Assembly (NCBI GenBank): GCA_014239555.1
Contig: JAAZYR010000006.1
Location: forward strand, 124,001-188,000
Length of the DNA stretch: 64,000 nucleotides
Direction of reading: 5' to 3'
Source of the DNA: Acidimicrobiales bacterium
Lineage (GTDB): Bacteria; Actinomycetota; Acidimicrobiia; Acidimicrobiales; Poriferisodalaceae
Numbering within the stretch: position 1 is the stretch's first letter; each line of letters starts with the position of its first letter. A program made the position numbers and the translations under genes. Shown here piece by piece: positions 23,242-42,451 of this stretch. Under the pieces are notes generated by a model, which saw nothing but the letters and a program-made list of their open reading frames with translations, was not told where the DNA came from and did not search any database.

Positions 23242-24882
23242 TCAGGAAGCTCGCTTTGTCGGTTGATTATTGCGCGCTCGAAAGTCATCAAGGTAGGGAT
23301 ATCGAGACGACAATGGCTGGTCACAATGCACAAGACGCAACTTCTCCGCCTGCGTGTTCAGCCAGTTCGCGACGCACCACAATTCGTCGACCTCGTCTTT
23401 GTGAGCGACGTCTATTAGGCGATCATGGGAGATATCGCTTGCCTCGTGTTCGCTCCAATGTTCCGCGAGGCGACCCCGTTCGACAATGGTGACTCCGACT
23501 CCAGGAAGTTCGACAACTAAACGCCCAGTGGACCGAATGCTGTCAAGCAGATATTTGCGCCGAAGCGCAGTTGACAAAGCCGATGCGCGCCGGCGTATGT
23601 CTGCGGCTTCCTCGAAACGCTGCTGACTAGCAAGGTCAACCATTCGATCTCTGAGAGGCCCAAGGATTCGTTCGGGGTGGCTGTTTAGAGCAGCTAGAAC
23701 ACTTTCGACAATCGCGCTGTAAGACTCCTCACTCACCTCCCCAGAGCATGGACAAACACTCGTCCCGATTTGCGCAGCAACGCAGGGCCCTGCGACATTT
23801 CGGCGAGTAACACGCTGAGTGCAGCGCCGCAAAGGCATCACGCTTTCTATGGCGTCGACGATATCTCGCGCTATTCGGCGTGATGAGACCGGACCAAGGT
23901 AGAACGCCCCGTCGTCACGGCAATCGCTGACAATAGAAAGCCGAGGGAAACGCTCTCCCAGCGTGAGTTTCACATAAGCGTATTTCGGCCAATTCTTTGA
24001 CCGCCGATTAAAGCGCGGTCGAAGCTGATGGATGAGACGAACTTCCAGTACTTCGGCTTGTAGCGGAGCGCTACACAACGTGTAGTCAATTCGCTGAGTT
24101 TCACGAAGTAGCTGGTCGACTTTGCGTCGCCGGTCACTAGAAAAGTAAGACCGAACGCGCGCTCGCAGATTCGTTGCTTTGCCGACATACAGCACCTCGC
24201 CTCGCCTGTCGATGAAGCGGTACACCCCTGGAGAACGTGGAAGGTCTTCAGTTAGACGGAGCTTCGTTGCCTGAGGGTGGCGTTGAATTTTTGGAAGTTC
24301 CTGAAGGTCGTCAAGCCCTAACACTCCCAACGCGGATGCCCGCTCTAGGAGAAGGTGGAGCAGATCAGCTGTTGCTTGTGCATCGTCAAGGGCGCGATGG
24401 CTTGGTTGGTGAGCTAGCCGAAAATATTTCGCCAAGGTGCCGAGTTTGTGGTTGGGAGCTTCATCTCGAATCAAACGACGAGCTAGCGAGAGAGTATCTA
24501 CGTGCGAGCCTCCCCAACGATCTCTGCCTGAGTGTTGCAGAGCGGCATTTAAAAACGCTAAATCAAATCCGACGTTATGTCCGACAATGACTGAATTTCC
24601 AATGAACTCCAAAAGGGTTGGAAGGACGTGTTCGATTTTTGGGGCACGATAAACCATCGCACTGGTTATTCCGGTCAGGATCGTGATTTGAGGCGGTATG
24701 GCTTTTCCCGGGTCCACAAGCGTCTGGAATGTCCCTAGTTGTTCGCCGCACCTGTATTTGACGGCCCCAACTTCGGTGATCATGTCGCTATCGCGACGGC
24801 CGCCTGTTGTTTCGAAATCAAGCACGCAAAACGTGACCTCGTGAAGGGGAGTTCCGAGATCATCTAGCGATTGCTGAAACAC
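23242..24882 (-). CDS. DnaQ-like exonuclease fused to UvrC/Cho-type GIY-YIG nuclease
   Basis: A 546-aa fusion. Residues 15-185 form a DEDDh 3'-5' exonuclease (DFETTG 22-27; HNVGFD; HRALDDA 162-168). Residues 215-300 form a GIY-YIG domain (GVYRF 219-223; VLYVGKATNLRARVRSYF). A cysteine-rich segment with RRCTQRV, PCVAAQ and CPCSG and a UVR-like helix pair (LASQQRFEEAADIRRR) complete the UvrC-like half. The same architecture is known in mycobacteria. It probably repairs DNA, incising like UvrC/Cho and trimming the end. GTG start; a LexA box lies 15 bp upstream. Confidence 0.9.
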   Translation of the reverse strand: MFQQSLDDLGTPLHEVTFCVLDFETTGGRRDSDMITEVGAVKYRCGEQLGTFQTLVDPGKAIPPQITILTGITSAMVYRAPKIEHVLPTLLEFIGNSVIVGHNVGFDLAFLNAALQHSGRDRWGGSHVDTLSLARRLIRDEAPNHKLGTLAKYFRLAHQPSHRALDDAQATADLLHLLLERASALGVLGLDDLQELPKIQRHPQATKLRLTEDLPRSPGVYRFIDRRGEVLYVGKATNLRARVRSYFSSDRRRKVDQLLRETQRIDYTLCSAPLQAEVLEVRLIHQLRPRFNRRSKNWPKYAYVKLTLGERFPRLSIVSDCRDDGAFYLGPVSSRRIARDIVDAIESVMPLRRCTQRVTRRNVAGPCVAAQIGTSVCPCSGEVSEESYSAIVESVLAALNSHPERILGPLRDRMVDLASQQRFEEAADIRRRASALSTALRRKYLLDSIRSTGRLVVELPGVGVTIVERGRLAEHWSEHEASDISHDRLIDVAHKDEVDELWCVANWLNTQAEKLRLVHCDQPLSSRYPYLDDFRARNNQPTKRAS

Positions 24883-24889
24883 CTACACG

Positions 24890-24895
24890 AATATA
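24890..24895 (-). promoter_or_regulatory. Probable -10 (TATATT) for the DnaQ-UvrC gene, leaderless
   Basis: On the minus strand TATATT is followed by 7 nt and the GTG start codon. It lies directly next to the LexA box, so repressor binding would block polymerase. Confidence 0.6.
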
Positions 24896-24896
24896 G

Positions 24897-24910
24897 CGAA
24901 CAAGTGTTCG
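24897..24910. promoter_or_regulatory. LexA (SOS) box, perfect palindrome
   Basis: CGAACAAGTGTTCG fits the Gram-positive/actinobacterial SOS box CGAAC-N4-GTTCG exactly. It covers the -35/-10 spacer of the DnaQ-UvrC promoter, 15 bp before its start codon. This predicts damage-inducible expression, as known for cho in E. coli. No second such site was noticed in the window. Confidence 0.8.
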
Positions 24911-24945: not shown

Positions 24946-25824
24946 TCAAGATCGGCCGGCTATTCGCCGCAGAAGTCCACGCTTCCGGGTGCTAGGCACC
25001 GGCATTTCTATGGTTGCCAACGCAGCCGCAAAATCTGCTCCGCTCTGAAAGCGGTCCTCAGGGTCCTTCGACATTGCTCGCACGACGATCTGGGCTAAAT
25101 CGTCTGCTACGCCGGCATCGCGCGGGTGAGGTGGAGGGAGCTTCACATGTGCGTGCAGAAGTTCGTTGCGTTCGCCGTAGAAGGGCGCAGCTCCCACTAC
25201 CAGCCGGTAGAGCGTGACTCCCAGGCTGTAAAGGTCGGTTCGACCGTCGACCGAATTCCCGAGTGCCTGTTCTGGAGCAAGAAACATTGGAGATCCGAAA
25301 ACCCGCCCCTCAGGTGGACCCGGCCCGTCTAAATCGTGGGCTAGGCCAAAATCGAAAAGGACGGCTCGGCTTTGTTTCTCGTCCAACATAATGTTCGATG
25401 GCTTGACATCGCGGTGCACGATGCGATGTTCGTGTACATGATCAAGCGCAGAACACATTTGCTGGATTATCGAGATTGCGTCGCCCAAATCAATTGCCTT
25501 TTGAGACTGAACGTGGTCCCAAACAGTCTCACCATCGATGGGCTCAATCTCTATGTAGTGAGTACCAGCGATGACACCTGCCTGCATCACCTTCAACACA
25601 TTGGGATGTTCTATTCGTGCCATCAGTTCGTACTCTTGCTCGAACAAGCCGCGAATTTCTCCTCGAGCCTCAGCAAAGGGGGTTAGAACCTTGAGAGCGA
25701 CTTCGCTCCCATCGCGCAATTGAGCGCGGTACACGTGGGCGACGGTTCCACGACCCAAGAGTTCGGTGATGCTGTAGGGGCCATATTGTCGACCCACCCA
25801 AATGTCTGCGTTGTCGCCGAACAT
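24946..25824 (-). CDS. Serine/threonine protein kinase, soluble
   Basis: A 292-aa Hanks-type kinase domain with no membrane segment or PASTA repeats. Gly-rich loop GRGTVAHVYRA (24-34), catalytic Lys45 in VALKVL, HRDVKPSNIML (137-147), DFG (158-160) and the APE-like motif FLAPEQALGN. All catalytic residues are present, so it should be active; targets unknown. ATG 25824 is supported by a GAGG 6 nt upstream; a TTG at 25836 is less likely. It is divergent from a small Cys-rich protein gene. Confidence 0.9.
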   Translation of the reverse strand: MFGDNADIWVGRQYGPYSITELLGRGTVAHVYRAQLRDGSEVALKVLTPFAEARGEIRGLFEQEYELMARIEHPNVLKVMQAGVIAGTHYIEIEPIDGETVWDHVQSQKAIDLGDAISIIQQMCSALDHVHEHRIVHRDVKPSNIMLDEKQSRAVLFDFGLAHDLDGPGPPEGRVFGSPMFLAPEQALGNSVDGRTDLYSLGVTLYRLVVGAAPFYGERNELLHAHVKLPPPHPRDAGVADDLAQIVVRAMSKDPEDRFQSGADFAAALATIEMPVPSTRKRGLLRRIAGRS

Positions 25825-25841
25825 TTTTAACCTCAAAGTGA

Positions 25842-40658: not shown

Positions 40659-41183
40659 ATGTCGCCGCGACGCAGGTATGAATGGCAAACTGCGGAGGTG
40701 CGAAACTGGGCTGTCGGTGGTGGGATAGTTTGCGACGCGGACCGGATCCTGATGGTGCACAATCAGCGGCGCGGCGGTCGCACTGACTGGAGCACTCCAG
40801 GAGGTGTCATCGATGAAGGCGAAACAGTGCTGGAAGGACTCACGCGAGAAGTCAAAGAAGAAACCGGACTAATCGTTGATGACTGGACTGGGCCGGTTTA
40901 CACCGTTTGCGCGGAGGCTCACGACATGAACTGGTTGTTGCGGGTCGAAGTCCATTTAGCAACCGAGTACGCCGGCGTAATCAAAATTGAAGACCCAGAC
41001 GGGATCGTTACAGCCGCCGAATGGACACCCAGAACCCAATTGGCGGAGCTGTTGGCGGGTCAACAGCTGTGGCTCAGAGAACCGTTGCTTGACTATCTAC
41101 ATGGCGAAGTCGAAGAAGGTTACGAATTCAGGTACCAGATTGACGGGGTTGACATAGATGATCTTCGAGTTCAACGTGTCTAA
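40659..41183 (+). CDS. NUDIX hydrolase
   Basis: A 174-aa protein with a complete Nudix box, GGVIDEGETVLEGLTREVKEETGL, matching GX5EX7REUXEEXGU. It should hydrolyse a nucleoside diphosphate linked to another group; substrate unknown, house-cleaning MutT-like activity possible. ATG 40659 is the first start past the divergent gene; a longer in-frame reading back to 40338 would cover the opposite-strand gene and is rejected. Confidence 0.85.
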   Translation: MSPRRRYEWQTAEVRNWAVGGGIVCDADRILMVHNQRRGGRTDWSTPGGVIDEGETVLEGLTREVKEETGLIVDDWTGPVYTVCAEAHDMNWLLRVEVHLATEYAGVIKIEDPDGIVTAAEWTPRTQLAELLAGQQLWLREPLLDYLHGEVEEGYEFRYQIDGVDIDDLRVQRV

Positions 41184-41239: not shown

Positions 41240-42451
41240 ATGGGTGACTTACCGATTCTTCACGTTGATATGGACGCCTTCTATGTCGAAGTGGAACGCC
41301 AAACTGACCCCTCGCTAATCGGTAAAGCCGTCATTGTTGGGGGAGAATCCGAGCGAGGAGTTGTTGCCTCGGCGAGCTACGAAGCGCGTTCAATGGGAGT
41401 CAGGTCAGCGATGTCTAGCGTGTTAGCAAGGAAACTATGCCCAGACGCCGTGTTTGTCCGCTCAAACTTCTCGCGATATCGAGAAGTTTCGAAGCAGGTT
41501 CACGAAATTTTTGATTCCGTTACCCCGCACATAGAACCAATTGCTCTAGACGAAGCCTTTCTCGATATCAGTGGAGCTCACAAACTGTTCGGCAGTTCCG
41601 AAACGATCGCCTGGCAGCTTCGAAACGACGTCCATGTGGGAGTAGGACTGGATTGCTCGGTCGGTGTCGCTAGGTCCAAATTGTTAGCAAAACTAGCTTC
41701 GGAAGCCGCAAAGCCCAAAGCCAGCCGCCGAGGAGTCCAGCCTGGCCAGGGAGTGTTCCTCGTGCACCCTAAAGAAGAGACCTCATTTTTGCAGGCACAC
41801 CCGGTGGAAGCGCTGTGGGGTGTCGGATCTGTGACGTTCGCGAGGTTGAAGGCTCTAGGCATCTCTACAGTTGGGGATCTGGCATCGGTGCCAGAAGACG
41901 TCTTAGTCGAAACTCTCGGAACATCTCACGGAATACATTTGTCAGAACTCAGTCGAGGTATCGACGATCGACGAGTTCATTCCGAAAGAAAAAGCAAGTC
42001 AGTTAGCCATGAGGAGACATTCGCACAGGACGTTTTCGACCGGAGTCACCTAGTAAGCGAAATTGTTCGACTTTCAGATGCGGTTTCCGCTCGCGCTAGG
42101 AGAAAAGGATTAGCCGGACGAACGGTCCACTTAAAAATCCGGCGCCCTGACATGCGATACCTCACAAGATCGGCGACTCTCAGCGAAGCTGTCGACACCC
42201 TCTCAGTTATTTCAGAAACGGCTATTGAGATGTTGGACCAGATCGACCTCGCAGAAGGCGTCCGATTGCTAGGAGTGGGTTTGAGCAGACTTGGGGCACC
42301 GGGCCCCCAGCAACTGACCCTTATCGGCGAAGAATTAACTGACCCGGCTTGGGGACAGCTTTCTGCGGCGATGGACCGCATACGAGAACGGTACGGTGAG
42401 GCCGCAATCGGGCCCGGTCTTCCGCGAAAAAATGAGGGAATGCACGGTTGA
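41240..42451 (+). CDS. dinB: DNA polymerase IV
   Basis: A 403-aa Y-family translesion polymerase. The palm starts ILHVDMDAFYVEVERQTDP with the first catalytic Asp; the second metal site is in IEPIALDEAFLDISG. VGVARSKLLAKLASEAAKP and VEALWGVGSVTFARLKALGISTVGDL follow (thumb helix-hairpin-helix), then the little-finger domain. No obvious C-terminal clamp-binding peptide is seen. No LexA box was found in the 56 bp upstream. Confidence 0.93.
   Translation: MGDLPILHVDMDAFYVEVERQTDPSLIGKAVIVGGESERGVVASASYEARSMGVRSAMSSVLARKLCPDAVFVRSNFSRYREVSKQVHEIFDSVTPHIEPIALDEAFLDISGAHKLFGSSETIAWQLRNDVHVGVGLDCSVGVARSKLLAKLASEAAKPKASRRGVQPGQGVFLVHPKEETSFLQAHPVEALWGVGSVTFARLKALGISTVGDLASVPEDVLVETLGTSHGIHLSELSRGIDDRRVHSERKSKSVSHEETFAQDVFDRSHLVSEIVRLSDAVSARARRKGLAGRTVHLKIRRPDMRYLTRSATLSEAVDTLSVISETAIEMLDQIDLAEGVRLLGVGLSRLGAPGPQQLTLIGEELTDPAWGQLSAAMDRIRERYGEAAIGPGLPRKNEGMHG

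Follow-up and report, generated by a model that had tools for sequence, protein, structure and literature searches.

A LexA box at the predicted leaderless promoter of an actinobacterial dnaQ-uvrC fusion gene, and its apparent exchange for a PafBC-type motif in one clade

Results

The window, i.e. the whole stretch of 64,000 nucleotides analysed here, belongs to the genome of a Microthrix-like actinobacterium (2.72 Mb in 68 contigs, about 96% complete). Its minus strand carries, at 23242..24882, a dnaQ-uvrC fusion gene whose product of 546 aa matches over its full length the NCBIfam model NF005907, “DEDD exonuclease domain-containing protein” (559 bits for a cut-off of 454). Pfam places a DEDDh 3'-5' exonuclease domain at residues 20-175 (24358..24825, minus strand) and a GIY-YIG nuclease domain at residues 218-289 (24016..24231, minus strand), and the alignment adds four invariant cysteines—C354, C367, C377 and C379—followed by a UVR-like motif at residues 417-436 (together 23575..23823, minus strand); the fusion of a DnaQ-type exonuclease with a GIY-YIG nuclease, as first described for this locus, is thus confirmed. 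Across the orthologues the DEDDh residues D22, E24, D107, H162 and D167 are invariant, and so are the GIY-YIG residues Y221, Y232, R240, E280 and N292, the last one lying just beyond the Pfam match. Among solved structures, its relatives are 2p1j (PolC exonuclease) and 1yd6 (N-terminal domain of UvrC).

A full UvrC of 622 aa is also encoded in this genome. Its alignment with the fusion spans the GIY-YIG domain, the four cysteines and the UVR-like motif and ends there, so that the C-terminal half of UvrC, responsible for the 5' incision, is absent from the fusion; the four cysteines align with those of UvrC, which are its Fe-S positions. The actinobacterial family NF005907 / PRK07883, which the fusion matches full-length and whose model is silent on regulation, is that of Rv2191 of Mycobacterium tuberculosis. 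Besides, three relatives (L247, L249 and L250, in genomes G045, G043 and G088) match the DnaQ half only, with about 195-215 aa and no GIY-YIG domain; these are possibly split or reduced forms, and no box was found at them.

Upstream of dnaQ-uvrC and in the same direction lies a Ser/Thr protein kinase gene (24946..25836, minus strand), which ends 63 nt before the start of the fusion gene. The predicted LexA operator, or SOS box, CGAACAAGTGTTCG stands between the two genes at 24897..24910; it fits the pattern CGAAC-R-N-R-Y-GTTCG. On the minus strand the order is CGAACACTTGTTCG-C-TATATT-CGTGTAG-GTG: the -10 element TATATT (24890..24895) follows the box after 1 nt and precedes the GTG start codon (24880..24882) by 7 nt (24889-24883); this codon falls where transcription is expected to start for a leaderless mRNA. 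Box and spacing are therefore exactly as reported by the initial annotation. The codon just before this GTG is TAG, hence there is no in-frame start codon further upstream. No -35 hexamer is evident at this promoter, and the locus scan found no TGTCRG-N10-TAnnnT there, the motif of the activator PafBC, which is the second regulator of the DNA-damage response in actinobacteria. Over the 64 kb of the window CGAACAAGTGTTCG is the sole perfect CGAAC-N4-GTTCG (scan with zero mismatches), for about 0.07 expected from base composition.

The genome encodes one LexA (PF01726, E 1.8e-23, above cut-off; C8:1462-1650), as the first proposal required. Genome-wide we count 13 perfect boxes, against 5 for the reversed pattern used as control and about 3 expected from composition. 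Two of them are in the region separating lexA from a divergent LysM gene, and single ones precede recA (with the same 14-mer as dnaQ-uvrC), imuA', dnaE2, ruvC—where the box overlaps the start codon—and dnaQ-uvrC itself; the other six are inside or among unrelated genes. The tighter pattern GAAC-R-NN-Y-GTTCG gives 19 strand matches against 6 for the control and adds a second box at recA and a third one at lexA, whose own intergenic region thus holds three; three further new sites look gene-internal. None of the perfect boxes of the genome is at uvrA or uvrB, which leaves dnaQ-uvrC as its only gene of the nucleotide excision repair type with a perfect box. We found no paper on SOS boxes of Acidimicrobiia in the open-licence literature; a sequence-based LexA regulon is now given for one genome of this class.

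The dinB gene of the window (41240..42451, plus strand; IMS and IMS_C domains) has no LexA box upstream, even when up to 2 mismatches are allowed in the scan of the window, nor a PafBC motif with the correct spacing nearby. One candidate, TGTCGGTG followed by TAGTTT near 40712 (40700-40735, at the NUDIX gene upstream of dinB), has a spacer of 8 nt where the PafBC motif has 10, and was not counted. The initial annotation had drawn from the boxless dinB the idea of a divided SOS response; this is not established, as a missing box does not reveal a second pathway.

The full fusion is present in roughly a third of 198 genomes of the order, and its nearest relatives, in a survey of named genome contigs, are from Acidimicrobiia and Candidatus Microthrix (92%, 81% and 69% identity). 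A box precedes the gene in all 30 of the closest orthologue loci, that of the window included: 28 are perfect and 2 are matched with one mismatch only. We then scored 170 upstream regions, from the order set and from additional genomes at class and phylum level (L046, whose upstream region reads N, was left unscored). LexA boxes were found in 89 of them, PafBC-type motifs in 43, neither in 37 and both in a single one; in first-order Markov sequences modelled on these regions, the LexA box occurs by chance at a rate of 0.9% and the PafBC motif at 0.015%. In the region labelled “both” (L107) a one-mismatch LexA match overlaps the PafBC motif, and it was counted as PafBC. The conservation of the box before orthologues, on which the first proposal could have failed, is thus wide.

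The geometry of the promoter is conserved as well. In 53 of the 89 LexA-type promoters a TAnnnT follows the box by at most 8 nt, against 7% at random positions; the 36 others indicate that the -10 is not always recognisable. Where it is called, the gap between box and -10 is 1-3 nt in 52 of 53 cases. From the -10 to the in-frame start, the distance is 6-9 nt in 37 of the 46 LexA-type promoters with a scored start, as expected from the leaderless arrangement first proposed, and 6-8 nt in 38 of 44 PafBC-type promoters, exactly 7 being the commonest value in the latter. The spacing is therefore about 7 nt in both types, which suggests that the -10 and the leaderless start stay while the upstream element is exchanged.

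This exchange concerns one clade, in which the LexA box is gone and TGTCRG-N10-TAnnnT takes its position upstream of the -10; the motif-bearing genera are Actinomadura, Nonomuraea, Janibacter, Kribbella, Nocardioides, Blastococcus, Streptosporangium, Jiangella, Cellulomonas and others. On a tree of 147 sequences, obtained by a quick search without mixture model and with a root not tested with an outside group, the LexA and PafBC states are separated by one change, when shuffled labels need at least 24. The motif clade (support 99) has 48 tips, 34 with a strict motif, 11 with a weak one, 3 with neither element and 0 with a LexA box, and its sister is a group of LexA or no element. Nested as it is in a LexA grade, it most simply makes the LexA state ancestral.

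We compared the reach of both regulators in 10 genomes of Acidimicrobiia and 10 of Actinomycetia type, the latter label being inferred from the position of their proteins in the tree beside named members. In every one of the 20, LexA boxes outnumber the reversed control. PafBC motifs number 72 against 3 for the control in the Actinomycetia-type set—not in every genome, since two have none—and 6 against 6 in the Acidimicrobiia. Upstream of recA, a LexA box is present in 20/20 genomes, accompanied by a PafBC motif in 9/10 of the Actinomycetia type and 1/10 of the Acidimicrobiia; ruvC has a LexA box in 18/20 and, in the Actinomycetia-type set, a PafBC motif in addition in two genomes and alone in one. 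As recA and ruvC mostly keep their LexA boxes, the exchange is not genome-wide: of the three genes compared, dnaQ-uvrC alone has lost its LexA box throughout the clade.

Discussion

These data make it very probable that the LexA operator governs dnaQ-uvrC, which would be a LexA-repressed and damage-induced gene, with a leaderless mRNA, for a nuclease resembling Cho of Escherichia coli. In undamaged cells LexA would occupy CGAACAAGTGTTCG just upstream of the -10 and keep RNA polymerase from the promoter; upon damage, RecA filaments would trigger the self-cleavage of LexA, and transcription of dnaQ-uvrC would begin at the GTG or right beside it. The protein keeps the GIY-YIG module of UvrC for 3' incision, the Cys cluster and the UVR-like motif; most likely it acts like the SOS-induced Cho and nicks 3' of lesions, with the DnaQ-type 3'-5' exonuclease trimming at the nick. 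Both this activity and the partner of the protein are predictions.

The role of the enzyme could be read differently. The fusion could be an accessory of the mutasome or of replication, induced with ImuA' and DnaE2 and working mainly through its exonuclease rather than on lesions: the three genes share the LexA regulon, and the exonuclease domain resembles the proofreading domains of PolC and DnaQ. Nevertheless, the conservation of the catalytic GIY-YIG residues of UvrC, of its Cys cluster and of the UVR-like motif points rather to an incision role linked to UvrB, and we regard an accessory function as unlikely. The promoter itself might be misread in another way: with a real box, transcription could start well upstream, in the kinase gene or at another promoter, and give a leadered mRNA on which LexA acts as a roadblock. 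The co-directional kinase gene ending only 63 nt away and the lack of a good -35 at the proposed promoter are in favour of it. But the distance between -10 and start is conserved in most promoters of either type (6-9 nt for LexA, 6-8 nt for PafBC), and the in-frame TAG before the GTG excludes an upstream start codon, so that we hold such a leadered arrangement to be improbable; read-through from the kinase gene could possibly add some LexA-independent transcription to that of the leaderless promoter. Lastly, a chance palindrome, or one that serves as operator for a different regulator, with dnaQ-uvrC constitutive, seems scarcely credible: about 3 perfect matches are indeed expected by chance in the genome, and of the perfect boxes that are not at SOS genes most fall within genes, but the conservation before orthologues is far above chance, the same 14-mer precedes recA, and the spacing from box to -10 is fixed at 1-3 nt.

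Cho of E. coli is SOS-induced, and it offers the closest comparison for the repressed nuclease gene proposed here. Both proteins correspond to the N-terminal GIY-YIG half of UvrC only, both are under SOS control—predicted in the case of the fusion—and both exist beside a full UvrC. On the other hand, the fusion differs by its fused DEDDh exonuclease, its UVR-like motif, its actinobacterial-type box and its leaderless promoter; the SOS control common to the two may have arisen independently. Cho is described as a UvrC homologue (Moolenaar et al. 2002, as cited in PMC5521853). A search of the open-licence literature found no paper linking the NF005907 / Rv2191 family, or a GIY-YIG/DnaQ protein, to LexA.

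The element that replaces the box in the motif clade is already known from mycobacteria. A promoter independent of LexA and RecA (RecA-NDp, P1) has the consensus tTGTCRgtg-8 nt-TannnT (PMC5656591), and PafBC activates promoters of this kind (PMC8223512, PMC11804915). The dnaQ-uvrC orthologues of the clade carry exactly that element, identically positioned with respect to the -10 and the start, whereas it is absent from dnaQ-uvrC of the window and not enriched in its genome. The identity of the motif thus suggests that dnaQ-uvrC is under PafBC control in this clade. We consider it likely that, in the ancestor of a large clade of Actinomycetia, an ancestral leaderless promoter repressed by LexA came under PafBC activation in a single step, with the -10 and the leaderless start unchanged, inducibility kept throughout, and recA and ruvC still under LexA.

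As far as the promoters tell, then, the regulator was apparently exchanged while inducibility was kept: a clean case of regulator replacement, from LexA repression to PafBC activation at the same promoter position, apparently occurring once and confined to one damage-response gene, the others tested having stayed with LexA. The strong conservation of a damage-type control in both clades suggests that cells benefit from the nuclease only when they are damaged, or are harmed by it at other times. The mycobacterial recA, with its dual promoter (LexA at P2 and PafBC at P1, PMC5656591), also combines these two regulators on one repair gene; yet recA adds PafBC and keeps LexA, whereas dnaQ-uvrC has one or the other, not both. 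According to a review, mycobacterial recA, uvrA and uvrC answer to both regulators (PMC8223512), a statement that may or may not cover dnaQ-uvrC.

The genome of the window encodes a tandem pair of WYL proteins resembling PafB and PafC, one of them with a PafC HTH domain (L192:173-2010), while a scan of this genome with the 10-nt spacer shows no enrichment of the known PafBC motif; PafBC may be inactive there, have few targets or read another motif.

Two observations concern the boxes of other genomes. The 2.46 Mb chromosome of G213, which holds the locus L239, is dotted all round with a 16-mer, TCGAACATATGTTCGA, in about 33 almost identical copies, far more than the boxes of the other 19 genomes; this is either an unusual LexA load or a dispersed palindrome that serves some other role. 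Besides, in most Acidimicrobiia tested (L013:1501-1514, L259-L266, L270) the SOS box of ruvC overlaps a leaderless start codon in the same register: it begins 7 nt before the start, so that the operator also codes for the first residues of RuvC.
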